The translations under genes and the position numbers were made by a program. The notes beneath the pieces are model-generated. The model saw only the letters and a list, made by a program, of their open reading frames with translations. It was not told where the DNA came from and searched no databases. A stretch of DNA of 22,985 nucleotides. Origin: a virus. The DNA lies in the IMG/VR virus record IMGVR_UViG_3300038629_000315, positions 1 through 22,985 of that record; one strand, 5' to 3'. Positions 7,794-22,985 of this stretch are shown here, in pieces (the first letter of the stretch is position 1; every line of letters begins with the position of its first letter).

Positions 7794-10700
7794 GTGGCGA
7801 CCGCTCTACAGAAGTTCAGACGCCGGCACCCCGAGTTCTCGGAGCTCAGTGACTTCGAGATCGCCGACGGGCTACGCCAGCGGTTCGCCAAGGAGGCCGA
7901 CGAGCCGGTACTGATTCGCCCGTTCTTCGAGGCCATCGGAGGGCCCGAGCTCCAGACCGAGCTCGAGCCATCAGGAGAGCCGCCGCCGGCACCGCCCCCA
8001 CAACCCCAGGTGCCTGGTGAAGATGCGCGCCCGGCATTAGCGCCAGCCCCAGCACCACCCTCGGCACTTGACGGCGAGCTCGGTCGACTGGATCGCCCGG
8101 ACGGCCAGCAGTCCACCGAGATCAGCATCACCGTCACCGACCCGGAGCTCAACCAGGGAGCACCGACCAACATCCCCAGCCTGGTGCGCGGCCAGGTCGA
8201 TGTTGACGCCCTGCTCCGTGGCGAGCAGGTTTCCCCGAAGCAGCAGCGCATCGCCATCGAGCGGGCCAAGGCACGACAGGCCGAGGGTGCCGAGCTCCCC
8301 GCCTTCGAGAGCATCCCAGCTGCCGAGCTTGCCGCTCGAGCTCGCTCTGACGCCAAGCAGCCGACCCCCCCAGATGCCGCATCAAGGGGGGTGCAACCAC
8401 CGTCCACCGAGGGACTGACCGGCCTCGAGCTCCCCGGCGCACCGGGCACGCCCCAGGCGCAACTGACCGGCGCGAACCTCGAGCCCGCCATCCAGGGCGG
8501 CCAGGCGCTCGAAGCCATTGCCCGCTTTGCCCGTGGTGGCGACCAGCCCGATGAGCGTGTCGCCAGGCGAGCGTTCCGCCAGAAGGAGGCCATCGCCGAG
8601 CGCACGCGCGAGATCCTGGGTGACGCGCAGAAGGAGACCGACAAGGAGGCGAAGGACCGGCGCGAGGCGTTCCGAGAATCCGCCCTCGGTCCCGACACGA
8701 CACTCGGCCAGGTGGTCAGTCAGACGATGAATCTGATCCCGATGACGCTCGGACTGTTCGCCGCCACCCACACCAACGACCCGGAGATCCTCAAGACCGT
8801 GGTCGAGGCGTTCGGCCCGTTCGACCAGGATCCCCGCGTAGCTGCCGAGCGCCGGGTGCGCTCCATCGCCTCGGGTGGCGTGGCCGCTGCCGGCGGCATC
8901 ATCGGCTTCCTGGGAACCAAGTCGAACATCGACGCGCTGCAATCGGGCGCGTTGACGGCGCAAGGGATCGCCGAGGGGCTCATGCCCCGCGACCCAGCAT
9001 TCATCGAGGAGCTCGGTGCCGGCTTCGGCTCGAGCGCCGTCTTTTGGGTGCCGGGTGTCGGCATCGCCAGGGGCGCCCAGGCCATCGCCAAGACTTCCCA
9101 CGTTGCTGCGTTGTGGGCCGGTGCCGGCGCATCGGGTGTCATGGAGGCGATGGCCGAGGCCGGCAATGCCTTCCAGTCGCTCGTCGACCAGGGCATCAAG
9201 CCCGAGGAGGCCGAGCGCCGAGCGGATGAAGTGTTCCTCCAGAACGCGGCCGTGGTGTCGCTGTTCAATCGCTTCGGACTGTTCGGTGAGCAGGGCACGC
9301 AGTTCGCCCGCATCACACTGACCGCTGCCGCCGAGGGCGTTCAAGAGTTCTTCCAGGCGATCATCGGTAATCTGGCCGAGACCGATCCACTCCTCCAGGG
9401 CGCCGGCAAGGGTGCCCTAATCGGCACCATCGTGGGAGGCGCTGCCGCCACCGCGACCCCGCGTGGCGTGCTGCCAGGCGAGCGAGCTCCGCCGCCGGCA
9501 GCTCCCCCACCGCCGACGCCCGACGAGCAGGCCGCCATCGACGCCGACCAGCCGACGGCCCCACCGCCGACGGCCCCACCGCCGGCCGCGCCTGGTGACG
9601 CCAAGCGGCGCACCGCCTTCACGCCCAGGAACGAGCCCATCGAGACCGATTTCGCCGTGGTCGATGCAGCCGATCTCATTACCAGCAACGACGACGCCGG
9701 CAACATCAACCCGGCTTTCCCCAAGGAGCTCCAGCCGCGTGACCGCTCGAGGAAGGCCAGCGGCGTGCAGATTGCGAAGATAGCCGGCAACCTGAACCCC
9801 GAGCTCCTGGCCGAGAGTCAGACCGTCACCGAGGGCGCCCCCATCGTGGGCGACGACCTGGTGGTGGAGAGTGGGAACGCGAGAGTGATTGCTCTCCGCC
9901 AGGCGCTCGCCGATGAGCGAGGCGCTGACTACCGTCGGTTCTTGGCAGACAACGCCGAGCGGTTCGGGCTCTCTCCCCAGGAGCTCGAGGGTATTGTCGA
10001 CCCGGTGCTCGTGCGTATCCGGCGTACCGAGGTCGCCGACCGTGCCGAGTTCACCCGCCAGGCGAACCAGCCCGCCGTCGCCGCGTTCGCGCCGGCCGAG
10101 CAGGCACGCAGCGATGCCGCCCGGCTCACCGAGGACGATCTCTCGCTGTTCAATCCCGACCAGGCCGGCAACCCCCTGGCCGCGAGCAACGAGCAGTTCA
10201 TTCGCCTGTTTATCCAGCGCATCGGTGCCGAGGAGGCCGCGGGCTTCACCGATGAGCAGGGCCGGCCCACCAAGCAGCTGGCCGACCGCATCAACTCCGC
10301 CATCTTCGCCCGCGTCTATGGTGACGACCGACTGATCGCGCTCCAGGCCGAGGCCGCCGACCCGCAGATCAAGAACATCCTCGCAGCCCTGCAAGCCGCC
10401 GCGCCCGCCTTCGCCAAGGCCAAGTCCATCGACGAGAACCTGGCCGGTCTCAACATCCCGGAGAAAATCACCGACGCCGTGGAGATGATCCGCGAGCAGC
10501 AGCGCCGGGGCGGAACCATCGAGCAGCTCCTCGAGCAATCGGAGCTATTCGGTGAGCGCGACCCGGAGGCCATCGGCTTCGCCCGTTTCATTGCGGCCAA
10601 CATCCGCAGCTCTGAGCGCATGGGCCGCGCCTTCTCCACCATCGCCGAGTTTCTCCAGGCCGAAGTCGCCCGCCAGCAGACCGAGGACATATTCGGTGAC

Positions 10701-13700
10701 GAGCCGGCGAGCCTTGCCGATTTGCTGGCCGCCGCCAACCGTGCAATCGAGACAGCCAATGCCCAAGAAGATCGCGCCGCCGGGGGTACAATCCCGGACC
10801 TTTTCGGGGCCAACCCCCCTAGAATCACGCCGACTGGCACTCCTCAACCGACTCCTCCTCCTGGGGCTCCACCAGGGCAACCTCCTGGAGAGCCAGGAGC
10901 CCCAACTCCGGGTGCCGCCCCGGCCCCGACCGCTCCCACAGGGCCGGCGCCGCAAGCCCGCGGCACGCGCACCCAGGAAGGCGAGCAAGTCATCGCCCTC
11001 AACGCCCTAGAGCTCCGGGTACTCGACAAAGCATTCGACGAGCTCGAGCTCCACGAGACTGTCATCGACTCGGTATCCATCGAGGTCGAGACCGAGACCG
11101 AGGACCAGGCCGACGCGCTGGCCGTGGCCGGCGAGGTGATCGCGGCACCCGATGAGTTCACCCGCGCCGAGCTCCGCGAAGGATTGACCGACATCGCCGA
11201 CGCCATCCGCGCCGGCACGCTCGCCCCGGACTTCGCCGCCACCGACGTGGCCGCTGCCAAAGCGATGGAGGACTTGGCCGAGAGCATCACCGAGGGCACC
11301 GCCGAGGAGCCGGTCGAGGAGCAGCCCGAGCTCACCGACGACGAGCTCGACGACATCATCGAGGCGCTGGCCGGCATCCAGGAGGGACGCATCGACCAGG
11401 TGAAGCGCGAGATCGCCCGCAACGCCAAGGCCACCGAGCTCGCCGCCATCATCACCGAGGGCTCGCCCGGGTTGAACGTCAACCGCCGCGAGACCGAGGG
11501 CGCCGTGAGCGTGTTCGCCCAGGGCAAGGACGTGGTGATCCGATTCGGCCCCGAGCAGTCCACCCGCCTGACGCCAGGCAAAATCGGCAAGCGCCTGGCG
11601 GCCATCTTCGGCGCAGCCCCCGCGCCCGAGGCCCCGGCGCCCGAGGCCGAGGCGCCCGACGGCGAGGCGCCCGGCGTTTCCGCCCCCGCCGGCGCCACGA
11701 TGGATCTCTCATCGATCAAGAAGTCGCGCATCAAGCCCGCCAGCAAGGCCCGCCCTGGCCTGGTGTGGGTGCGCTTCGGTGACGGCATCTTTGCCCGGCG
11801 CGTCCTGGCCGAGCCCGACCCGGACACCAATGTGCATCGGTCGACCGGGTTTGTGATTGAACACGCCGGCCATCCGACGGCCGTGACGCCGTTCACCCTC
11901 CTCACGGCCAGCGGCGAGCGCGTCGTATCCGAGTCGGGCCGAGGCTGGGCCACTCTGCCCCCGGTCGAGCGCAAGGCGCTGGCGCTGTTCGAGCAGGCCA
12001 AGGGGCGCGAGGAGGAGGAGGCCGTGCCGGCGATTCCAGACGCGCAGGATCCCGACTTCCGGGCGCAAGCCATCCTCGAGCAGCTGGTATTCGACCAGTT
12101 CAACACCCGGAAATCCGAGCTCGCCGCGCTCATCAAAGCCGCCGCGAGCTCCGACACCGACGTTGAGCTCGGCGAGCTGGTGCAGCAACTGACTGGCGAC
12201 GGCGACACGGCGGGCTTCCAGTTCACCGGATCCCCCGGGGCGCTGGGGCAATCCTTCCGCCGCGCCTTCGCGCACCGCATCGAAACGGCACGCCCGGGCC
12301 TCGGTGCTGGCGTGTTGGGCGAGACCCGCGAGGAGCTGGAGGCCGACCTGGCCGCCAGCACGCGCATCTTCGAGACCCTCGGCCATGTGCGCGCCACCAA
12401 CCTCTCCCGCGATGAGAGCAGCGTATTCGTCACCCAGCGCGAGGCGCTTACCCGCCGCATCAAGGACATCAATCGGAAGCTGAAAAAGCTCGCAGCCGGC
12501 GCCCCCGAGCAGCCCAAGAAGGCGCCCACCGGCCCGCGTGAGAAGAACGACGTAATAGGCGACTTCCGCGAGGCGCAGTCGAAGATCGGCGCGTTCCTCC
12601 GCGACTCGAAGCTGCCCCAGGCCGAGCGTGAGGAGAAGGCCGCCGCCGTGACCGTCGAGCTCCGGGCCCTCCAGGTGGAGCTCGCGCAGATTGCGCTGGA
12701 TGAAGCCGGCCGCGTGACGCCCGGCGTTGCCGCCGACAGGAAGCGCGCCGCCAAGGTCTCGACGGCGTTGCGAAAGACCGCCGACGGGTTGCAGAAGCAG
12801 ATCGACGCCAAGCTCGACCCCGCGACCGCCGGCCAGAACCTCACGCCCAGGCGGGCCCGAATCATCGACTCGATGATGGCCGACGGCCGGCGCCTCCAGT
12901 CTATTCAGACCGATTTGAACAACATGGCCGACGCCACGGATCTCGGCTCGTTGCCCATCATCCTGGCGAACGTGAAGTCGAAGGCCATCGTCGAGGACTT
13001 GATGCGCCCGACGCTGCCCTCGGGCAAGTTCAGCGAGAAGGAGGCGAAGCGGGCCGCGAACGCGGGCTTGCGCAACCAGGAGAAGTGGGAGGAGGCGCGT
13101 GCCGCCCTCAAGAGCCTCGCCGTGGCCGGCCCCACCACCGATCCCACCGTCGAGGCCCGGCGCCGCTTCGACAAGCTCAAGCGCGATCTCGTGGGGCAGA
13201 AGGGAGTCGGCGTCGACTTCTTCCCGACCCCGCCGGAGCTCGCCGCCGATCTCGTGGACCGTGCCGACGCGCAGATCGGTGACTCGGTGCTCGAGCCCTC
13301 CGCCGGCTCGGGCAACATCATCGAGCAGATGGCGGATATATACGAGACATTCGACATTCCGGTGACGGCTCTCGAACAGAGCTCCGGGCTGGTGGAGGTG
13401 CTTCGGGCCCAGGCCGAGGCGCTCGCCGACACCCATCCCGTGACCGTCGAGCAGGGTGACTTCCTGAAGTACACCACCAAGCACGACATCATCGTGATGA
13501 ATCCGCCGTTTTCAAAGAACCAGGACATCGCCCACGTTCGCCATGCCTGGTCACTCTTGAAGCCCGGCGGGCGCCTGGTGGCCGTGATGAGCGAGCACGC
13601 CTTCATTGCCAGCGGCACCGTCGAGACCGAGTTCCGCGACTTCCTCGACGCCGAGAACGGCACACACGACGAGCTCGAGCCCGGCCAGCTTGCCGACCGT

Positions 13701-16700
13701 GCCGTGACCCAGCGCAGCCAAGTGAAGGGCCGCATCATCGAGCTCAACAAGGCGAAGGAGCGACTCGATGATGGCGTTATCGAGGAGCGCGGCACCAGCT
13801 ACTCCATCCGCGAGGATGAGACCGAGAGCGCCAAACAGGTGGAGGCCGGCCAGCTGGATCTGTTCGCGCCCCCTGGCAAGCCGACGCCGCGTGCCCCGAC
13901 GGTCATCAAGAAAGCCGCCAAGCCCGCTGCCCCGCCGCGGGTCAAACAGGTGCGCACCGGCACCGTTCACGCCGGATTCGATGTCGTCAACAACGTCGAG
14001 GAGGCGGCCCACGTCGTCGCCCCGTTCCGCAAGGACGCCCAGGAGTCGTTCGTCGCCCTGGTGCTCGGCAAGGGCAACAAGGTGATCCGGGTGATCCGCC
14101 ACTCCATCGGTGGCACGGCCGGCGCCACCGCCGACGTGGGAATCATCGCCGGCTCGGTGGCCGAGACCCCCGGCGCCCAGCGCGTCTACTTCTCCCACAA
14201 CCACCCCTCGGGTGTCCCGCAGCAGTCGGCCGCGGATCGCGCCATCACCGAGCGCCTGAGCGTGGTGCTCGTCGACACCGGCATCAAGGTCATGGGTGCC
14301 ATTGTGGTCGCACCGGGTTCCGCCGTCGCCACGGTGCTGAACATGGCGCCCGATGGCGTGGTCGAAGGCCAGGCGAATGTGCGCATCAAGGCCGCGCCCC
14401 GGCGCATCCCCATCCCCGTGACCGAGCGGCGGATCCGGCGTGTTTCGCGCGGGTTCCCAGGGTTGCTCGCCGCCGGCTCCCCCGAGGTCGCCAAGGGGCT
14501 CATGGTGGCCGAGAAAGGCGAGGGCGTGCTGTTGCTCAACAACCGCCATCAGCCGCTCAAGTTCGTGACCATGACGGTGGCCGAAATGAAGAAGCTGCGC
14601 ACGGGCGTGGCCGGCACCGGAGCGAACCGACTCCAGCGAGAGATCGTCGGGCAGAATGCGAGCGCGGCGCTGGTCAAGGTGAATGTCTCCAACGAGGGCT
14701 CCCTGGTCGCGCTGCGCAACGTCGGCACGTTCCTCGAACAGCACTCCATTCGGATGCTCGATGGATTCTTGATGGAAGCCGACGGCACCGCCACCTCGCT
14801 CCAGGAGCGCAACATGCCGCTGGCGCGGGTGTCGGGCACCTTCGACATGCGCGACGTGCCACCGGGCACCGACCCCGAGCTCGATGTGGAGGAGGATTCG
14901 CTCAACGCCATCCGTAAGCGGATCCAGGATGCCGGCGGCACCGTGCTCATCCAGACCGATGTCGATGGCGATCTCAGCCTCGACATCGTGGAGCTCCCCA
15001 AGGGCAAGCGCGGGATGGGGGTCGGCACCGCGTTCATGGAGGCGCTGACTGCCCATGCCGACCGCTTCGGCCGCGACATACAGCTGACGCCGCATCCCCT
15101 CGACATCGAACGCAAGCGCGGCGACCGTGCCGACGACGTGGCGCGACTCGTCAACTTCTATTCCCGGTTCGGCTTTCAGCTCTCGCTGGACGAGGCGACC
15201 ATGTTCCGCACCACGGCCACGGTGCCGGCGCCATCGCCCGAGGGTGGTCCGAGCGGCACCGAGTTCGCGGGTGGCCCCGGTGCCACGTTCCGGGGATTCA
15301 TCGGCGACCGTGACCTGCCCGAGCCGGGCCCAGGCGCTCCGAAGAAACCAGTCTCGGGGTTCGGCGTGCTCAAGACCCCCATCGCCCCGGACAAGCCGCT
15401 GCGCCGCGACAACATCCTGCGCCGCTTCGAGAAGGCTCTTGGCCTGAAAATCTACCAAGGCCGGGTGAAGGGCTCGAAGTCGCGCCTCGGGTTCTATCGC
15501 AAGCATCTCGAGGAGCTCCGCATCCGTCACAACAACGATCTCGAGGTCGTCGCCCACGAGGTCGGCCACTTCCTCGATGATCTCGACCCGCGATTCTCGT
15601 TCGCCTACAAGTCGAACCAGTTCAAGGATGAAGTGCTGGGGCTGAGTTACGACATCGACAAGCTGAACGAGGGCTTCGCCGAGTTCGTGCGCCTGTTTCT
15701 CACCCAGGAGGAGGAGGCCGCCGCGCGAGCTCCAGGTTTCTACGAGGTGTTCGTCGAGCTCATCGAGGGCTCTCGGTGGGAGGCGCCGATGATCCGCGCC
15801 CAGGCCGATATGCACGCCTGGTTCCGCCAGGGCGCCATCAACCGGGCGCTCTCGAAGATCGGCAGGGACACTACTCTCAGCGGGCGCGTCCAAGACTTGT
15901 GGCGGGCGCTCGAGGACACCGCCGACAAGTGGGACGACCTGGCGCTCAAGAACATGTTCGACGAGCTCCAGGGGCTCAAGGTGGCCGAGCGCACGATCGA
16001 GGGCACTATCGGTGACGCCGATCTCTCCGCCTACAAAGCCACCCGACTGATCCGTGGCGTGCGTGGCGTGGTGCGGGCCGTATTCAAGCACGGCACCATT
16101 CGGATGGAGGCGAACGGCGACGTGGTGTTCGTTGGCAAGGGTCTCCGCCAGGTATTCGAGCCGGTGGCCGATGTGATGGACAAGACGATGGCTTACTTTG
16201 CCGGCCGTCGCGCCGCCGAGCTCGCCAGCCAACGCCGGGAGAACCTGCTCAAGCCAACCGAGATCGACGCGCTCATCGCCCAGGGCGCCGACAACCCGAA
16301 GATCGTCCAGGCGTTTAAGGACTACCAGACGTTCCTCGACGAGATGATGGACTTCTACCAGCAGGCCGGCATCATTTCGGCCGAGAGTCGCGCGCTCATC
16401 CAGGAGCTCAACCGCGACTATGTGCCGTTTCACCGGCTGCTCGAGCTCGCCACCGGGCAGAAGCGCACCGTGAGCCGCTCGGCGTTTAAGCGGCTGTTCG
16501 GTGGGACCGCCAACGTCAACGACATATTCGACAACATCATGCAGTCGACCGCCGCCCTGGTGGACATGGCCGTGCAGAACCGGGCGAAGCAGAAGGTCTA
16601 CACGATGATCATGCGCGGCCGGGGTTCGGCCGAGTTCGCGGTGCGCATCCCGAAGGACACCAGGGCGGTGAAGATCCACTCCGATCAGGTCGCCAACCAG

Positions 16701-18539
16701 GTGCGCGGGATCCTCGAGGACATGGGCATCGATCTCGCCGAGGTGCTCCCCGAGGGTGGCATGACGTTCAACGAGGACTTCGCCGACGCTGCCGGCGACT
16801 TCCTCAAGTTCTTCACCTTTGGCAACGCGCCCATCGGCGACAACATCGACCAGGTGATGTTCCGGGGCAAGCGCGTGTTCTTCGAGGTCGCCGATCCGTC
16901 GTTCCTCAAGGCCATGCTCTCGATGGGGTGGCGGCCGACGAATCTATTCATCCGCATCGCCCAGGGCTTCAAGCGCACCCTGACGTTCGGCGTCACCGCA
17001 TTGCCCGACTTCATGGTGCCCAACATGATCCGCGACTCGGTGAGCGGCTGGCTGCTCCGGCGCTCGAACATGATGCCGTTCGTGGGCTCCATAAGCGGCT
17101 TCTTCGACCGCATCGTGAAGGACGACAACTACTGGCTATACCTCGCCAACGGTGGCGGCTTTGCGAGCAGCGTTCGCACCGAGACCGCCACCACCAGGCG
17201 CGGCCTGGAGAAGCTGTACGTCGGCGCCGGCTTCAAGATGAAGAACGTGCTCGACACGCCGGCCAGGCTCATCGACTGGTGGCTCGAGGTCGGCAGCGCC
17301 TTCGAGTACGGCACCCGGCTTGCCGAGTTCAAGGCGTCCCGCGAGCAGGGGAAATCGTTGCAGGAGTCGGCGTTCCGGGGCCGCGACGTGTCGACGGACT
17401 TCGCCATGCGCGGGTCGAGCGACTTCATCCGCAACTTTATCTCCATCGTGCCGTTCCTCAACGCGAGAATGCAGGGGCTCTACAAGCTCGAGCGCGAGCT
17501 CTTTGAAACCAAGGGCAAGCAGCGCCTCAAGGGTGAGCACGCCGGCCAGCTGTTCCTGCGTGGCGGGCTCGCCATCACGTTGCCGTCGCTCGCGCTCTGG
17601 TGGCTGAATCACGACGACGACCGCTATAACGGCCTCCCGGATTGGGTCAAGGATCTCCATTGGGTGATTCTGATCCCCGAGGGCATCGCCAAGCAGATGG
17701 GCATTGACGAGGTGTGGCTCATCCCGAAACCGTTCGAGATGGGCGCGATCTTCGCATCCATCCCCGAGCGTTCCTTGCAGTTCATCAAGGACCGCGACGG
17801 CGTGGCCTTCATGGACGCCCTGGGCTTCATCTTCGGCGAGCAGCTGAACATGGCGGCGGTGCCGCAGATCGGCAGCCCCATCCTCGACCACCTGATGAAT
17901 CGCAACTTCAGCGGCGGGCGCGTGATCCCCGACGACCTGGCGAACGTCGACCCCACTGAGCAGTTCCGGCCGTGGACGAGCGAGACCGCGATCCTCCTCG
18001 GGCAGACGGTGGGCATGAGCCCGCTTCTGTACGATCACTACGTTCGCGGCTACCTGGGCACGCTGGGCATGTACCTGACGATGGGAACCGACTCGCTCGT
18101 CCAGGCAGGGCTTCCCGAGTCTCCCACCAAGGAGTTCGCCGACTATCCCGTGGTGCGCCGCTTCACCCGTGCGTTGCCGCTGCGCCGCACCAGCTACGAG
18201 GACGAGTTCTACGAGCTCCGCCAGGAGATCCGGCTCGTCACGTCCACGTTCAACAAGATCCGGGCCGAGGGGCGCAACCCGGCCGAGTACCTTACCGCCG
18301 AGGGGCGGTCGGTGCTGTTCGGGATCCGCCTGACCACCGAGAGCATCGCGCGCGACATCACCAAGTTGAATCGGGCCATGCGCTTGACCAGACTCTCGGG
18401 AGTGATGACGCCCGATGCAAAGCTGATAGAGATCCGCGAGCTCCGCCGGCAGCGTAACCAGCTGTTCAAGGACGCGACCGATGTCTTGAGCCCGGCCACC
18501 GTGCGCAAGCTGCGCGACAGATTGGAGGCAGAAAAATGA
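7794..18539 (+). CDS. Giant polyvalent protein (3581 aa): ParB-like, methyltransferase, JAB, GNAT, zincin and LPD38-like domains
   Basis: One uninterrupted 10.7-kb frame, starting at GTG 7794 (an in-frame stop at 7779-7781 excludes anything much earlier; no clear Shine-Dalgarno, so coupling to the gene upstream is likely). Order by residue: 1-31 a RHPEFSELSDFEIADGL motif common at N-termini of phage internal proteins; Pro linker; ~303-559 hydrophobic helices with Gly-rich stretches; Pro linker; ~605-980 DdrB-like ParB domain; Pro-rich linker (~1003-1059); acidic helical region; ~1800-1966 methyltransferase; ~2053-2183 JAB; ~2360-2474 GNAT; ~2536-2659 zincin; long helical region; ~3220-3433 LPD38-like. 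It occupies the P22 gp16 position among ejection genes, so it is probably packaged and injected, acting early on host defences, DNA or proteins. That role is inferred from the polyvalent-protein family. Its stop overlaps the fibre gene (ATGA). Confidence 0.9.
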   Translation: MATALQKFRRRHPEFSELSDFEIADGLRQRFAKEADEPVLIRPFFEAIGGPELQTELEPSGEPPPAPPPQPQVPGEDARPALAPAPAPPSALDGELGRLDRPDGQQSTEISITVTDPELNQGAPTNIPSLVRGQVDVDALLRGEQVSPKQQRIAIERAKARQAEGAELPAFESIPAAELAARARSDAKQPTPPDAASRGVQPPSTEGLTGLELPGAPGTPQAQLTGANLEPAIQGGQALEAIARFARGGDQPDERVARRAFRQKEAIAERTREILGDAQKETDKEAKDRREAFRESALGPDTTLGQVVSQTMNLIPMTLGLFAATHTNDPEILKTVVEAFGPFDQDPRVAAERRVRSIASGGVAAAGGIIGFLGTKSNIDALQSGALTAQGIAEGLMPRDPAFIEELGAGFGSSAVFWVPGVGIARGAQAIAKTSHVAALWAGAGASGVMEAMAEAGNAFQSLVDQGIKPEEAERRADEVFLQNAAVVSLFNRFGLFGEQGTQFARITLTAAAEGVQEFFQAIIGNLAETDPLLQGAGKGALIGTIVGGAAATATPRGVLPGERAPPPAAPPPPTPDEQAAIDADQPTAPPPTAPPPAAPGDAKRRTAFTPRNEPIETDFAVVDAADLITSNDDAGNINPAFPKELQPRDRSRKASGVQIAKIAGNLNPELLAESQTVTEGAPIVGDDLVVESGNARVIALRQALADERGADYRRFLADNAERFGLSPQELEGIVDPVLVRIRRTEVADRAEFTRQANQPAVAAFAPAEQARSDAARLTEDDLSLFNPDQAGNPLAASNEQFIRLFIQRIGAEEAAGFTDEQGRPTKQLADRINSAIFARVYGDDRLIALQAEAADPQIKNILAALQAAAPAFAKAKSIDENLAGLNIPEKITDAVEMIREQQRRGGTIEQLLEQSELFGERDPEAIGFARFIAANIRSSERMGRAFSTIAEFLQAEVARQQTEDIFGDEPASLADLLAAANRAIETANAQEDRAAGGTIPDLFGANPPRITPTGTPQPTPPPGAPPGQPPGEPGAPTPGAAPAPTAPTGPAPQARGTRTQEGEQVIALNALELRVLDKAFDELELHETVIDSVSIEVETETEDQADALAVAGEVIAAPDEFTRAELREGLTDIADAIRAGTLAPDFAATDVAAAKAMEDLAESITEGTAEEPVEEQPELTDDELDDIIEALAGIQEGRIDQVKREIARNAKATELAAIITEGSPGLNVNRRETEGAVSVFAQGKDVVIRFGPEQSTRLTPGKIGKRLAAIFGAAPAPEAPAPEAEAPDGEAPGVSAPAGATMDLSSIKKSRIKPASKARPGLVWVRFGDGIFARRVLAEPDPDTNVHRSTGFVIEHAGHPTAVTPFTLLTASGERVVSESGRGWATLPPVERKALALFEQAKGREEEEAVPAIPDAQDPDFRAQAILEQLVFDQFNTRKSELAALIKAAASSDTDVELGELVQQLTGDGDTAGFQFTGSPGALGQSFRRAFAHRIETARPGLGAGVLGETREELEADLAASTRIFETLGHVRATNLSRDESSVFVTQREALTRRIKDINRKLKKLAAGAPEQPKKAPTGPREKNDVIGDFREAQSKIGAFLRDSKLPQAEREEKAAAVTVELRALQVELAQIALDEAGRVTPGVAADRKRAAKVSTALRKTADGLQKQIDAKLDPATAGQNLTPRRARIIDSMMADGRRLQSIQTDLNNMADATDLGSLPIILANVKSKAIVEDLMRPTLPSGKFSEKEAKRAANAGLRNQEKWEEARAALKSLAVAGPTTDPTVEARRRFDKLKRDLVGQKGVGVDFFPTPPELAADLVDRADAQIGDSVLEPSAGSGNIIEQMADIYETFDIPVTALEQSSGLVEVLRAQAEALADTHPVTVEQGDFLKYTTKHDIIVMNPPFSKNQDIAHVRHAWSLLKPGGRLVAVMSEHAFIASGTVETEFRDFLDAENGTHDELEPGQLADRAVTQRSQVKGRIIELNKAKERLDDGVIEERGTSYSIREDETESAKQVEAGQLDLFAPPGKPTPRAPTVIKKAAKPAAPPRVKQVRTGTVHAGFDVVNNVEEAAHVVAPFRKDAQESFVALVLGKGNKVIRVIRHSIGGTAGATADVGIIAGSVAETPGAQRVYFSHNHPSGVPQQSAADRAITERLSVVLVDTGIKVMGAIVVAPGSAVATVLNMAPDGVVEGQANVRIKAAPRRIPIPVTERRIRRVSRGFPGLLAAGSPEVAKGLMVAEKGEGVLLLNNRHQPLKFVTMTVAEMKKLRTGVAGTGANRLQREIVGQNASAALVKVNVSNEGSLVALRNVGTFLEQHSIRMLDGFLMEADGTATSLQERNMPLARVSGTFDMRDVPPGTDPELDVEEDSLNAIRKRIQDAGGTVLIQTDVDGDLSLDIVELPKGKRGMGVGTAFMEALTAHADRFGRDIQLTPHPLDIERKRGDRADDVARLVNFYSRFGFQLSLDEATMFRTTATVPAPSPEGGPSGTEFAGGPGATFRGFIGDRDLPEPGPGAPKKPVSGFGVLKTPIAPDKPLRRDNILRRFEKALGLKIYQGRVKGSKSRLGFYRKHLEELRIRHNNDLEVVAHEVGHFLDDLDPRFSFAYKSNQFKDEVLGLSYDIDKLNEGFAEFVRLFLTQEEEAAARAPGFYEVFVELIEGSRWEAPMIRAQADMHAWFRQGAINRALSKIGRDTTLSGRVQDLWRALEDTADKWDDLALKNMFDELQGLKVAERTIEGTIGDADLSAYKATRLIRGVRGVVRAVFKHGTIRMEANGDVVFVGKGLRQVFEPVADVMDKTMAYFAGRRAAELASQRRENLLKPTEIDALIAQGADNPKIVQAFKDYQTFLDEMMDFYQQAGIISAESRALIQELNRDYVPFHRLLELATGQKRTVSRSAFKRLFGGTANVNDIFDNIMQSTAALVDMAVQNRAKQKVYTMIMRGRGSAEFAVRIPKDTRAVKIHSDQVANQVRGILEDMGIDLAEVLPEGGMTFNEDFADAAGDFLKFFTFGNAPIGDNIDQVMFRGKRVFFEVADPSFLKAMLSMGWRPTNLFIRIAQGFKRTLTFGVTALPDFMVPNMIRDSVSGWLLRRSNMMPFVGSISGFFDRIVKDDNYWLYLANGGGFASSVRTETATTRRGLEKLYVGAGFKMKNVLDTPARLIDWWLEVGSAFEYGTRLAEFKASREQGKSLQESAFRGRDVSTDFAMRGSSDFIRNFISIVPFLNARMQGLYKLERELFETKGKQRLKGEHAGQLFLRGGLAITLPSLALWWLNHDDDRYNGLPDWVKDLHWVILIPEGIAKQMGIDEVWLIPKPFEMGAIFASIPERSLQFIKDRDGVAFMDALGFIFGEQLNMAAVPQIGSPILDHLMNRNFSGGRVIPDDLANVDPTEQFRPWTSETAILLGQTVGMSPLLYDHYVRGYLGTLGMYLTMGTDSLVQAGLPESPTKEFADYPVVRRFTRALPLRRTSYEDEFYELRQEIRLVTSTFNKIRAEGRNPAEYLTAEGRSVLFGIRLTTESIARDITKLNRAMRLTRLSGVMTPDAKLIEIRELRRQRNQLFKDATDVLSPATVRKLRDRLEAEK
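9606..10733 (+). other. Domain: DdrB-like ParB superfamily domain in the giant protein
   Basis: Residues ~605-980. Landmarks are NPAFPKELQPRDRSR (PRDRSR at 648-653), IAGNLNPELL, APIVGDDLVVESGNAR (ESGNAR at 692-697), then DPVLVRIR and FTRQANQP, followed by an all-helical extension. The QPRDRSR and VExGNxR motifs define the ParB/sulfiredoxin-fold domain named after DdrB, a P1 antirestriction-system protein, and widely fused into polyvalent proteins. Whether it has nuclease or nucleotidase activity here is not shown. Confidence 0.82.
13191..13691 (+). other. Domain: class I SAM-dependent DNA methyltransferase (NPPF) in the giant protein
   Basis: Residues ~1800-1966. It has FFPTPPELA upstream, motif I as LEPSAGSG (1833-1840), an acidic residue ending the next strand (LEQSSG), and motif IV as NPPF (1903-1906). 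NPPF/Y is the hallmark of amino-methyltransferases acting on adenine or cytosine N4 (or on Gln/guanine N). In this context DNA adenine methylation for protection against restriction is most likely, but no target-recognition domain is identifiable. Confidence 0.85.
13950..14342 (+). other. Domain: RadC-like JAB (MPN+) domain in the giant protein
   Basis: Residues ~2053-2183. The metal-binding signature is HNHPSG (2135-2140) followed by D2148, matching H-x-H-P-S-G-x7-D of RadC/JAB domains; the preceding strands (ESFVALVLGKGNKVIR) match the RadC core. JAB domains are zinc isopeptidases in eukaryotes. RadC-type versions in phages and plasmids are associated with polyvalent and antirestriction proteins, and their substrate is unknown. 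Confidence 0.85.
14871..15215 (+). other. Domain: GNAT-like acetyltransferase in the giant protein
   Basis: Residues ~2360-2474. Two beta-strands (GTVLIQTDVDG, LSLDIVELP) lead to RGMGVGTAFMEAL (R2406 onward), which fits the acetyl-CoA-binding R/Q-x-x-G-x-G/A loop and helix, then a DIQLTPHP strand and a LVNFYSRFGFQL segment typical of GNAT motif B. Confidence is moderate because the first GNAT strands are weak. Its target is unknown. Confidence 0.7.
15399..15770 (+). other. Domain: zincin metallopeptidase in the giant protein
   Basis: Residues ~2536-2659. VVAHEVGHFLDD holds the HExxH zinc motif (H2588, E2589, H2592), and LNEGFAEFVRLFLT about 35 residues on supplies candidate third ligands (E2626 or E2630), the usual spacing in gluzincin-like phage domains. 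It could process phage or host proteins after ejection, or mature the giant protein itself. The substrate is unknown. Confidence 0.82.
17451..18092 (+). other. Domain: LPD38-like (large polyvalent protein-associated) region
   Basis: Residues ~3220-3433. Features are FLNARMQGLYKLER, a hydrophobic helix (~3253-3270, LAITLPSLALWWL), a YNGLPDWVK segment, and the WLIPKPFEMGAIFASIPE block. This resembles the C-terminal domain 38 defined in polyvalent proteins. Its function is unknown; the presence in injected proteins suggests packaging or membrane passage. The domain number is from memory. Confidence 0.7.
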
Positions 18540-20685: not shown

Positions 20686-21023
20686 GCTCCACGAATCACG
20701 TCAAGGAGGTCGCCACATGGGTGACACTAGCAGCCGCGATATTGGGCGGGGCATTTTGGGCGGAGGACCGCTACGCGAACGCAGGGGAAACGGCGTCAGC
20801 GATGTTCACGCAGAAGCTAGTGCTCCGCAACGAGCAACAGAGTCAGGCGAACGACAACCGGCTGGAGAGGATGCAGCGGGAGCTCAACGCGATCCATTCA
20901 CGTCGCGCGAGTGGTCAACTTTTCACGGGGGACCGCGCGCTGATCAGGGATCTCAACGAGGAGATCCGTATCGCCCGTGAGTACCGGAGTGCCTTGCGGC
21001 AACAAGCCGCGCAAATCAAATAG
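20682..21023 (+). CDS. Membrane-anchored coiled-coil protein (spanin-like position)
   Basis: A 113-residue protein in an ATGA overlap with the holin-like stop. It has one N-terminal membrane segment (~10-26, WVTLAAAILGGAFWA) and then a long helical, Glu/Arg/Gln-rich stretch (~45-113) with heptad character. That is the architecture of inner-membrane spanins (Rz-type) and also of many unrelated phage membrane proteins. No proline-rich outer partner overlaps it in another frame in an obvious way. The next gene, with a signal peptide, is the only candidate outer partner but lacks a lipobox. Called by context only. Confidence 0.68.
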   Translation: MSSTNHVKEVATWVTLAAAILGGAFWAEDRYANAGETASAMFTQKLVLRNEQQSQANDNRLERMQRELNAIHSRRASGQLFTGDRALIRDLNEEIRIAREYRSALRQQAAQIK

Positions 21024-21033
21024 GGGTCCGACT

Positions 21034-21558
21034 ATGCGAACGATCACAACGCTGTTCTTGCTCGCCCTGGTGGGCGCCGTGTCGGCGAGCCAGGAGCGCC
21101 GCGGGCCATCACCACCGCCGCCGGCCCAGGCCGAGGCCCAGGCCGAGGGCCAGAACGCCGGGGACGCTCCGGTCAGCCTGGTCATGGAGAGCTCGGCCTT
21201 CGAGGGCGTTGCGATTGCGCCCAACCCGAGCGCGCCGCCACCCTCCGCTCAGTGCCGCTACGGCTGGAGCGTGACGGGTGCGGTGGTCGAGTTCGGCATG
21301 GGGGTCACGGGCTCGGACTGGGACGAGATTTGCGGGCTCTGGCTCGCTGCCCAGCAGACCACCGGGGAGGCCAAGTCGGAAGCTGCGAGCGCCGCGTTCT
21401 GCCTGACCATGAAGAAGGCCAAGGTGGCGAGCCCGACGTGCGCCTCATGGGACAAGGGCCAGGGGGAGCTCCGGGTCGAAATGAATCAGAACCAGGCGGC
21501 GGTCGTGTTCGGTGGTGCCGGCACCAGCGCCGTGGTGGTGCGAACCCCGGACAACTGA
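21034..21558 (+). CDS. Secreted Cys-containing protein, unknown
   Basis: Start chosen at ATG 21034 because AGGGG (21022-21026) is seven bases ahead and the protein then begins with a clear signal peptide (MRTITTLFLLALVGAVSAS, cleavage likely near residue 18); an earlier in-frame ATG at 20977 would put this peptide internally. The 174-residue product has a Pro/Ala/Gln-rich stretch (~24-45), then CRYGWSVTGAVVEFGMG (from residue ~74) with C-x~20-C spacing to ICGLW, and more cysteines around 121 and 134 suggesting two disulfides. It has no lipobox, so it is probably periplasmic. Similar signal-peptide/Cys proteins occur at the end of phage lysis cassettes; I do not know a function. It is the last gene before the convergent terminator. 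Confidence 0.72.
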   Translation: MRTITTLFLLALVGAVSASQERRGPSPPPPAQAEAQAEGQNAGDAPVSLVMESSAFEGVAIAPNPSAPPPSAQCRYGWSVTGAVVEFGMGVTGSDWDEICGLWLAAQQTTGEAKSEAASAAFCLTMKKAKVASPTCASWDKGQGELRVEMNQNQAAVVFGGAGTSAVVVRTPDN

Positions 21559-21562
21559 GGTG

Positions 21563-21597
21563 AAAAAAAGGGGCCCGCTGTGTCGGCACCGGGCCCC
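21563..21597 (-). terminator. Rho-independent terminator of the minus-strand operon
   Basis: An 8-bp GC stem (GGGGCCCG at 21570-21577 with CGGGCCCC at 21590-21597) encloses a 12-base loop and is flanked on its left by seven A residues (21563-21569). Read on the minus strand this is a hairpin followed by a T-tract, so it ends transcription arriving from the right, just past the stop of the CxxCxxCC gene. On the plus strand no T-run follows, so effect on the late operon is uncertain. Confidence 0.88.
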
Positions 21598-21604
21598 TCG
21601 AGCG

Positions 21605-22006
21605 TCAGCGTTGAACCGCCGACTGGTTAGTGATCCGTTTCTTCTTCTTGCGGGGCTTCTTGGGCTTCGACGGGTTGCATGGGTTGGCTTGCTCGATGGT
21701 CACGGGCATTCTCCTGACCGCCTGGAGGCGGATGCGTAAAGACATTCCAGGGTGCGTCACATAATCCCGGCAGTCGTAGGACCGGCAGACATTCGGCCTG
21801 GTCGCGTAGATGGAACAGCCGCCAGAACATAAGTACACGCAGTCCCCACTGGCGCGGGTGGCGAGGTAGGTCTTGCCGTCCCGCTGGTACGTCTGCCACA
21901 TGAACGACGGCTCCGTGATGAGGAGCTCCCTCGGGCCCTTGCAGCACTCCCGGCACGCCCCACAGATGAGTGGTGAGCGCGCCGGCCTGGACTGACTGTA
22001 GACCAT
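21605..22006 (-). CDS. YkgJ-type CxxCxxCC zinc/iron-binding protein
   Basis: A 133-residue protein on the minus strand, ATG at 22006. The family signature is exact: C15-x2-C18-x2-C21-C22 (CGACRECCKG), followed by C56, C60, C64 in the CVYLC...GCSIYATRPNVCRSYDC segment (C74 and C79). This is the YkgJ-like metal-binding cluster domain found across bacteria and phages, generally with unknown biochemical role; it probably binds Zn or Fe-S. The C-terminus ends in a basic KPKKPRKKKK tail that could contact nucleic acid. No strong Shine-Dalgarno; the gene begins ten bases after the preceding stop. It is the last gene of its operon, followed at once by a terminator. Confidence 0.88.
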   Translation of the reverse strand: MVYSQSRPARSPLICGACRECCKGPRELLITEPSFMWQTYQRDGKTYLATRASGDCVYLCSGGCSIYATRPNVCRSYDCRDYVTHPGMSLRIRLQAVRRMPVTIEQANPCNPSKPKKPRKKKKRITNQSAVQR

Positions 22007-22015
22007 CGAACGCCG

Positions 22016-22108
22016 TCACCAGTAGCCGTACACGATGCCCCACACCAGGATGGCGAAGCCCACGAGGACGATGGCGAGCGGCCAGTTGATAATGCTGCGC
22101 TTGCTCAT
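22016..22108 (-). CDS. 30-residue single-TM microprotein
   Basis: A small gene that shares an ATGA four-base overlap with the Acb2-like gene before it (ATG at 22106-22108 on the minus strand, stop 22016-22018). The product is 30 residues: a short basic head (MSKRSIINWP) and one hydrophobic helix (LAIVLVGFAILVWGIVYGYW). Too short for a family call. Support comes from the perfect overlap, the clean membrane-helix composition and placement in a tight operon; it is easily missed by length cutoffs. A membrane role is likely. It could be a regulator, an inhibitor or a superinfection protein, none of which can be told from sequence. Confidence 0.55.
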   Translation of the reverse strand: MSKRSIINWPLAIVLVGFAILVWGIVYGYW

Positions 22109-22395
22109 GCCTGGTGGCCCGTCTTGACGACCGTCTTGGTGTGGGTAATCACGCCCGGCGGCTCGATGGCGGTCGGTCGGGCGATGGCACGGTTCAGTGC
22201 CATGAAGCCCTGCTCGATGTGGGTCTGCCCGATGGCGAGCCACCGCGAGTCGTACCCGGTGGCATCCCGGAGCATTGCCACCGTAGCGAGCACCATCGCC
22301 TCGATCTCCTTGCAGCGGTTCATGTCGGCGAGCTCCTCGGCGTTGAGCTCGCGGTAGCCCTTCACGGGCGTGTAGGGGATTACATCTTCGCTCAT
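22105..22395 (-). CDS. acb2: Acb2-like anti-CBASS cyclic-oligonucleotide sponge
   Basis: A 96-residue protein with ATG at 22395 and a strong Shine-Dalgarno (AGGAGA, minus strand, 22408-22403, seven-base spacer). It matches the small helical Acb2 family: GYRELNAEELADMNRCKE at 13-30, then a second helix with RWLAIGQTHIEQGFMALNRA (51-70) and IARPT (71-75). The Y14-K29 spacing equals that of Tyr11 and Lys26, which I recall as ligand-contacting residues in phage PaMx33 Acb2. Acb2 proteins form hexamers that sequester cyclic di- and trinucleotides and so block CBASS immunity. Function here is inferred from the family; the substrate range is unknown. It overlaps both neighbours by four bases. Confidence 0.82.
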   Translation of the reverse strand: MSEDVIPYTPVKGYRELNAEELADMNRCKEIEAMVLATVAMLRDATGYDSRWLAIGQTHIEQGFMALNRAIARPTAIEPPGVITHTKTVVKTGHQA

Positions 22396-22637
22396 GGGTT
22401 TCTCTCCTGGTCATACAGTTGATAAGCCTCGCAGGCATCGCGCAGGCGCGCCTCGTGGGAGAAGCCACCGCCGGCAGCGAACCACACCAGGGCCTCGCGG
22501 ATGATGTGATCCCCGGCGCGGCGGTGGCTGATCCCCTGGTTACGGGCTGCGTGCCGGCAGGTGGTAGAGCAAAACTTCTGCCAGGCGCGGGCCGGCTCAA
22601 AGGGCCCACGGCAGTTAAGGTTCCCGCACGTTGCCAT
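22392..22637 (-). CDS. Small zinc-finger-like protein
   Basis: Start chosen at ATG 22637: a GGGAGGGG sequence lies just upstream on the minus strand and the Cys motif starts right after it, while a longer frame to 22718 has no such site. The product is 81 residues. C4 and C9 (C-x4-C), then C23 and C27 in WQKFCSTTCRH form a plausible zinc ribbon of the kind seen in small phage and prokaryotic FCSxxCR proteins, then a helical tail (HIIREALVWFAAGGGFSHEARLRDAC, from ~44 on). It overlaps the Acb2-like start by four bases. Role unknown; nucleic-acid or protein binding is plausible. Confidence 0.72.
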   Translation of the reverse strand: MATCGNLNCRGPFEPARAWQKFCSTTCRHAARNQGISHRRAGDHIIREALVWFAAGGGFSHEARLRDACEAYQLYDQERNP

Positions 22638-22809
22638 GTATGCCCCCTCCCGGATTAAATGCGTTGCGCGCATCTGAGGAGCCCTGGGCCCCCTCCTGAC
22701 GGCATCGTACCAGGCCATAGTGGACCGCTATCGCCTCCAGGTGCCGCCCCATCTGACAGAGCTCCTCCGCCCGCATACACCGGCAGAAGTGGTGCTCGCA
22801 GGGCGTCAC
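22615..22809 (-). CDS. Small His/Cys-rich protein of unknown function
   Basis: A 64-residue protein with GTG start at 22809, in a GTGA overlap with the partial gene before it. The N-terminus is a Cys/His cluster (CEHHFCRCMRAEEL, C4, H6, H7, C9, C11), then LCQMGRHLEAIAVHYGLVRCR (split), and a Gly/Asn-rich tail. The pattern HFCRCxRAxEL...MGRxxEAIxVHxxxVxCR resembles small phage proteins that I recall but cannot name. It overlaps the zinc-finger gene by 23 bases. Metal binding is likely. Function unknown. Confidence 0.6.
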   Translation of the reverse strand: MTPCEHHFCRCMRAEELCQMGRHLEAIAVHYGLVRCRQEGAQGSSDARNAFNPGGGIHGNVREP

Positions 22810-22985
22810 TCGGTCGCCTCCGGGCCGAGCTCCTTGAACCGTATCTTGTAGGCGCCCATGAGCGAGACCTTCTGCTTGGCGTTGCGGATCTCGTTGATGG
22901 CATCAAACACGACGATGAGCTCGTCGATGTTCTTGGCCGACTCGATGGCGACCAGCAGCTTGGCCTCGTCTACCTGGCCGACAGG
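22806..22985 (-). CDS. C-terminal end of an unknown protein (5' end outside window)
   Basis: The last 59 codons of a minus-strand gene, open to the right window edge, ending at TGA 22806-22808, which overlaps the GTG of the next gene. Too little is visible for a start. The fragment is helical and charged: AKLLVAIESAKNIDELIVVF, then DAINEIRNAKQKVSLMG and KIRFKELGPEATE (read in pieces). No family recognised. It is the first visible member of the minus-strand operon, whose promoter lies beyond the window. Confidence 0.65.
   Translation of the reverse strand, partial: PVGQVDEAKLLVAIESAKNIDELIVVFDAINEIRNAKQKVSLMGAYKIRFKELGPEATE

Follow-up and report, generated by a model that had tools for sequence, protein, structure and literature searches.

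Acb2 assembles into a hexamer. Three cyclic dinucleotides are bound between its head-to-head protomers, two cyclic trinucleotides occupy the ends of its central channel, and the bound signals are released intact when the protein is destroyed (PMC12043709, PMC10419184, PMC12657218). In the case of T4, the Y8A mutation was reported to abolish cyclic dinucleotide binding (PMC12657218). In Tad1 (Thoeris anti-defence 1), a beta-sheet domain at the N-terminus contributes to the gcADPR pocket (PMC12043709).

We analysed a phage fragment of 22,985 bases, a complete IMG/VR record that is called the window here. No near match to it was found in a search of the phage collection. The nearest relative was the viral contig IMGVR_UViG_3300043173_000426 (43,374 bp), referred to as G001. 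The plus strand of the window encoded a portal fragment, a scaffolding protein, a P22-type major head protein, a connector and ejection proteins. The late genes, from the portal fragment onward, were all on this strand and ended at 21558. The acb2 gene was on the minus strand (Table 1), and the original prediction had correctly placed it opposite the late genes. In addition, a late protein of 3,581 aa (7794-18539) carried LPD38, ddrB-ParB, RadC and methyltransferase domains, as a large polyvalent protein. A 193-aa late ORF (20977-21558) had a signal-like N-terminus. The part of G001 that was searched lacked a counterpart and had a different ORF, of 113 aa, in its place.

Table 1. Coordinates of acb2, its ligand-site codons and the neighbouring features in the window
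Feature	Position	Strand	Basis or remark
acb2 homologue, 96 aa	22105..22395	-	ATG-to-TGA ORF; PF24729 match
Y14 codon, equivalent of PaMx33 Y11 / T4 Y8, cyclic dinucleotide site by alignment	22354..22356	-	invariant in 60-sequence alignment
K29 codon, equivalent of PaMx33 K26	22309..22311	-	conserved in at least 90% of family
R51-W52 codons, equivalent of PaMx33 R67-W68	22240..22245	-	invariant in 60-sequence alignment
Upstream gene, 81 aa, Cys-rich N-terminus, ATGA overlap with acb2	22392..22637	-	likely start 22637; longer ORF to 22718
Hydrophobic peptide, 30 aa, ATGA overlap with acb2	22016..22108	-	83-87% identical to both G001 alleles
CxxCxxCC metal-binding-type protein, 133 aa, final gene of leftward operon	21605..22006	-	PF03692 1.1e-5, 26.5 bits (cut-off 23 bits)
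Probable intrinsic terminator of leftward operon, GC hairpin and U run	21560..21605	-	folding energy
Small gene farther upstream, 64 aa	22615..22809	-	homologous segment in G001
3' part of gene cut by contig end	22806..22985	-	89% nucleotide identity to G001

The ORF scan of the minus strand returned a frame of 96 codons with an ATG start and a TGA stop, and its limits were exactly 22105 and 22395. An Acb2-like protein had been claimed here, with a profile search against the Acb2/Tad1 hairpin family proposed as a check. The search was significant. Pfam PF24729 (Acb2_Tad1_hairpin) matched the 96-aa protein at 60.9 bits and 1.3e-16 against a curated cut-off of 27 bits, and the whole profile was covered. 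The hairpin-family search of the whole window itself gave the acb2 product at 61.3 bits. In phmmer, the protein matched the solved PaMx33/PaP2 Acb2 (PDB 8h2j, 8ixz) at 4.4e-10, and the PaMx33 acb2 translated from its genome was the sequence of PDB 8h2j. The profile search with 60 relatives found Acb2 at 1.5e-25 and T4 Vs.4 at 5e-10, with no other credible entry and no Tad1. A chance match was rejected by a control with a profile of 91 relatives, from which the window protein and its G001 sibling were left out. This profile scored the window protein at 103.7 bits, and the best of 20,000 shuffled versions of the product reached 9.8 bits. NCBIfam gave no credible match to the acb2 product, and the PADLOC defence library gave no match. 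The sequence profile, the fold and the conserved ligand-site residues strongly supported that this ORF encodes a member of the Acb2 family.

Structure prediction was performed with AlphaFold2 from the alignment, and the monomer model had a mean pLDDT of 88.9. It was a two-helix hairpin (H19-44 and H50-72) without strands, and the 19-residue C-terminal tail was modelled without structure and at lower confidence. The two long antiparallel helices predicted after a short N-terminal segment corresponded to the Acb2 fold. In Foldseek, Acb2/Vs.4 chains took ranks 1-8 with probability 0.99-1.00. VIA-align 2 superposed the model on 8h2j (Z 8.7, 1.5 Å, 70 residues) and on 7uq2 of T4 Vs.4 (Z 8.7, 2.4 Å, 72 residues), and the next unrelated helical protein had a Z of 7.1. 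Since this margin was small for a helical model (8.7 against 7.1), the fold backed the sequence result and was not sufficient alone. Such a Z (8.7) counts as modest when the protein is a helical hairpin, and the case for Acb2 was made by sequence and fold together. A fold search of BFVD gave weak matches only, among which several carried the name Acb2/Tad1 hairpin protein.

The ligand-site residues were compared within the family. Y14 and K29 were both present, as the original prediction had noted, and shared alignment columns with PaMx33 Y11 and K26. They were 15 residues apart, the same as PaMx33 Y11-K26 and T4 Vs.4 Y8-K23. We take PaMx33 K26 to have a role in ligand binding, and R67 is presumably part of the cyclic trinucleotide site. 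This Tyr-to-Lys spacing taken alone was weak evidence for Acb2, although only one of the window's 87 ORFs with lengths of 60-150 aa had it. Among 93 distinct family sequences, the Y14 column was 97% Tyr and the K29 column was 96% Lys. Because these columns were near-universal, keeping Y14 and K29 marked the protein as a typical member. Y14, R51, W52, M65, R69 and P74 were invariant among the 60 relatives, and G13, N26, K29, D49, T58 and G63 were nearly invariant. All near-invariant family positions were kept in the window protein. In the case of Ile77, the residue stood where PaMx33 Acb2 has its C-terminal Phe93, a column with 57% Phe, 21% Val and 17% Ile in relatives (Ile/Val about 38%). This meant that affinity or specificity might differ from PaMx33. 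The 19-residue tail extended past I77 and was divergent among the nearest relatives. The acb2 core is under purifying selection, with dN/dS of 0.26-0.44 in all three pairs of the window gene and the two G001 alleles. For the whole gene, tail included, the values were 0.43-0.60; all of these are rough because they came from just three sequences of 96 codons each.

The protein was compared with the described systems. PaMx33/PaP2 Acb2 (PDB 8h2j, 8h2x, 8ixz) had the hairpin fold in common with it, together with the N-terminal motif G-Y-R...N-x-x-K and the C-terminal motif R-W...T...G-x-M...R...P, at about 34% identity. However, the segment between the helices was about 20 residues longer in PaMx33 Acb2, and the final residue was Phe, whereas the window protein had Ile and an extra C-terminal tail of 19 residues. 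The founding phage PaMx33 has acb2 as the last gene of a leftward operon. A late structural gene faces it, with annotated terminators in between, and the placement in the window was similar. T4 Vs.4 (the Acb2 of T4, PDB 7uq2) showed the same fold and the same Y-x14-K spacing at about 20% identity. Its F82 aligned with A72 of the window protein, where PaMx33 has Ala too. The C-terminal hairpin domain of PF24729 was common to Tad1 and the window protein. However, the N-terminal beta-sheet domain of Tad1 was absent from the latter, which had 96 aa and a hairpin match from residue 13. This absence indicated that the window protein is a stand-alone Acb2.

Acb2 hairpin genes were also observed on 41 plasmid records, of which 35 were from Klebsiella and 37 were typed as non-mobilizable. 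Many of the plasmids were about 108-117 kb, and they are possibly phage-plasmids.

The acb2 gene was located toward the late-gene end of the leftward operon. The terminator hairpin following this operon had a folding energy of -25 kcal/mol (z = -4.15), and none of 200 shuffles was as good. A sigma-70 promoter scan of 21000-22985 found none. The gene cut by the contig end was full length in G001, with 260 aa (L002:4192-4974), and this version had no Pfam match. The N-terminal 39 aa of the upstream Cys-rich gene were 59% identical to L002:5442-5699, and its longer ORF had no Pfam match. The 30-aa peptide is probably a single-pass membrane peptide, judging from its sequence.

The acb2 gene was present at both ends of the G001 contig (L010:1-1260 and L011:16836-17375). 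The first 93 bases of the copies were identical and then diverged, giving 85% over the whole gene, with divergence in the middle and the C-terminus. In one copy, about 440 bp were inserted between acb2 and the gene for the membrane peptide. The inserted ORF (L010:299-740) showed a signal-peptide-like start and a low-complexity body rich in Gly, Ser and Asp. The membrane peptide and the CxxCxxCC gene matched at about 96% between the two ends, and the final 75 or so bases of the end segments were identical. Identical stretches around a diverged segment at contig ends are what an assembler would leave with two alleles in a circular genome. The two G001 ends therefore probably represent alleles that coexist at a single locus of such a genome, and a tandem duplication of the acb2 segment is the alternative. 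The two diverged acb2-segment alleles in G001 are new in this analysis. Since the alleles diverged and one of them carried the insertion of about 440 bp, we considered that alleles of the segment might turn over fast in the phage lineage, with two of them in one sampled population. This reading is tentative and rather doubtful. Such a pattern of alleles would be expected if phages exchanged one sponge for another, either to keep up with CBASS signals or to evade systems that sense sponges, for example Panoptes.

The genes flanking acb2 had been put forward as guilt-by-association candidates for further counter-defence functions. The four-base overlaps on which this was based were exact, at 22392-22395 upstream and 22105-22108 downstream. 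An island of acb2, the membrane peptide and the CxxCxxCC gene, in which the small genes would also block host defences, would fit these overlaps. It would also fit the gene order in the sibling G001, where the Cys-rich gene, acb2, the 30-aa membrane peptide and the CxxCxxCC protein follow each other as in the window, and the extra ORFs that G001 has on both sides of acb2. However, the four-base overlaps were lost in G001. The overlap of acb2 with the membrane-peptide gene was one base there, against four in the window, and the Cys-rich gene and acb2 were far enough apart to accommodate an extra ORF. For the flanking genes, relatives were found only in G001 among the viral_contigs and none in the phages collection, and the PADLOC defence library had no match to the neighbours. 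When the neighbours at about 100 other acb2 loci were clustered, no recurring family was linked to acb2 itself. Recurrence tracked phage lineage, and the genes beside acb2 in other phages were unrelated ones that varied with the lineage, among them head, packaging, replication and unknown genes. Since the overlaps were lost in G001 and nothing recurred beside other acb2 genes, guilt by association was not supported. The small neighbour genes gave no sign of a defence role, and a counter-defence island is unlikely. A link to TIR signalling was also rejected. In Rhizobium phage RHph_X2_26 (L016:1923-2728), the TIR-annotated gene directly upstream of the Acb2 hairpin gene was DUF1937/DUF4406 by Pfam. 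In Aeromonas phage MQM1 (L017:1882-2713), a weak, sub-threshold PolyA_pol match was observed directly upstream of the Acb2 hairpin gene.

Two other readings of the protein itself were weighed. A hairpin protein that had drifted to another ligand, such as one of the Thoeris gcADPR type or cyclic trinucleotides only, would not be strictly anti-CBASS. PF24729 unites Acb2 with the Tad1 hairpin, and the I77 substitution and the divergent tail would be consistent with such a drift. However, the near-invariant site positions were all kept, and the model had two helices with no place for the N-terminal beta domain of Tad1, so that this reading is quite improbable. A structural or non-defence hairpin that resembles Acb2 by fold only was suggested by the many middling fold matches that helical hairpins yield. 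However, the Acb2 entries were clearly separate at the top of the Foldseek result, and a profile made without the protein scored it far above any shuffle (103.7 against at most 9.8 bits). This reading was already largely refuted and is very improbable. We put a probability of about 0.9 on the ORF encoding a stand-alone Acb2 sponge that would work by the known Acb2 mechanism, with its ligand, hexamer and anti-CBASS activity presumed.

The window protein keeps the sequence features that are needed, which makes the Acb2 mechanism the best inference. The acb2 gene would share a leftward transcript with further small, non-structural genes. Its product is predicted to fold as a two-helix hairpin and, by analogy with Acb2, would assemble as a hexamer of head-to-head dimers. 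Cyclic dinucleotides would be bound in the Y14/K29 pockets, and cyclic trinucleotides would probably be bound at the three-fold axis. The signal would be sequestered and not destroyed, and CBASS or related effectors would stay off during infection. These results suggested that the protein most likely soaks up host CBASS cyclic nucleotide signals. It is also reasonable to infer that the host of this phage carries CBASS, as the original prediction had supposed.

It is well supported that the protein belongs to the already known Acb2 family and comes from a little-sampled phage lineage. The understanding of how Acb2 works is unchanged by this member. With this finding, an uncultured phage lineage of the P22-coat type with few database relatives gains a confident Acb2. 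In addition, the G001 alleles form a natural pair for testing whether sponge specificity varies within one phage population.
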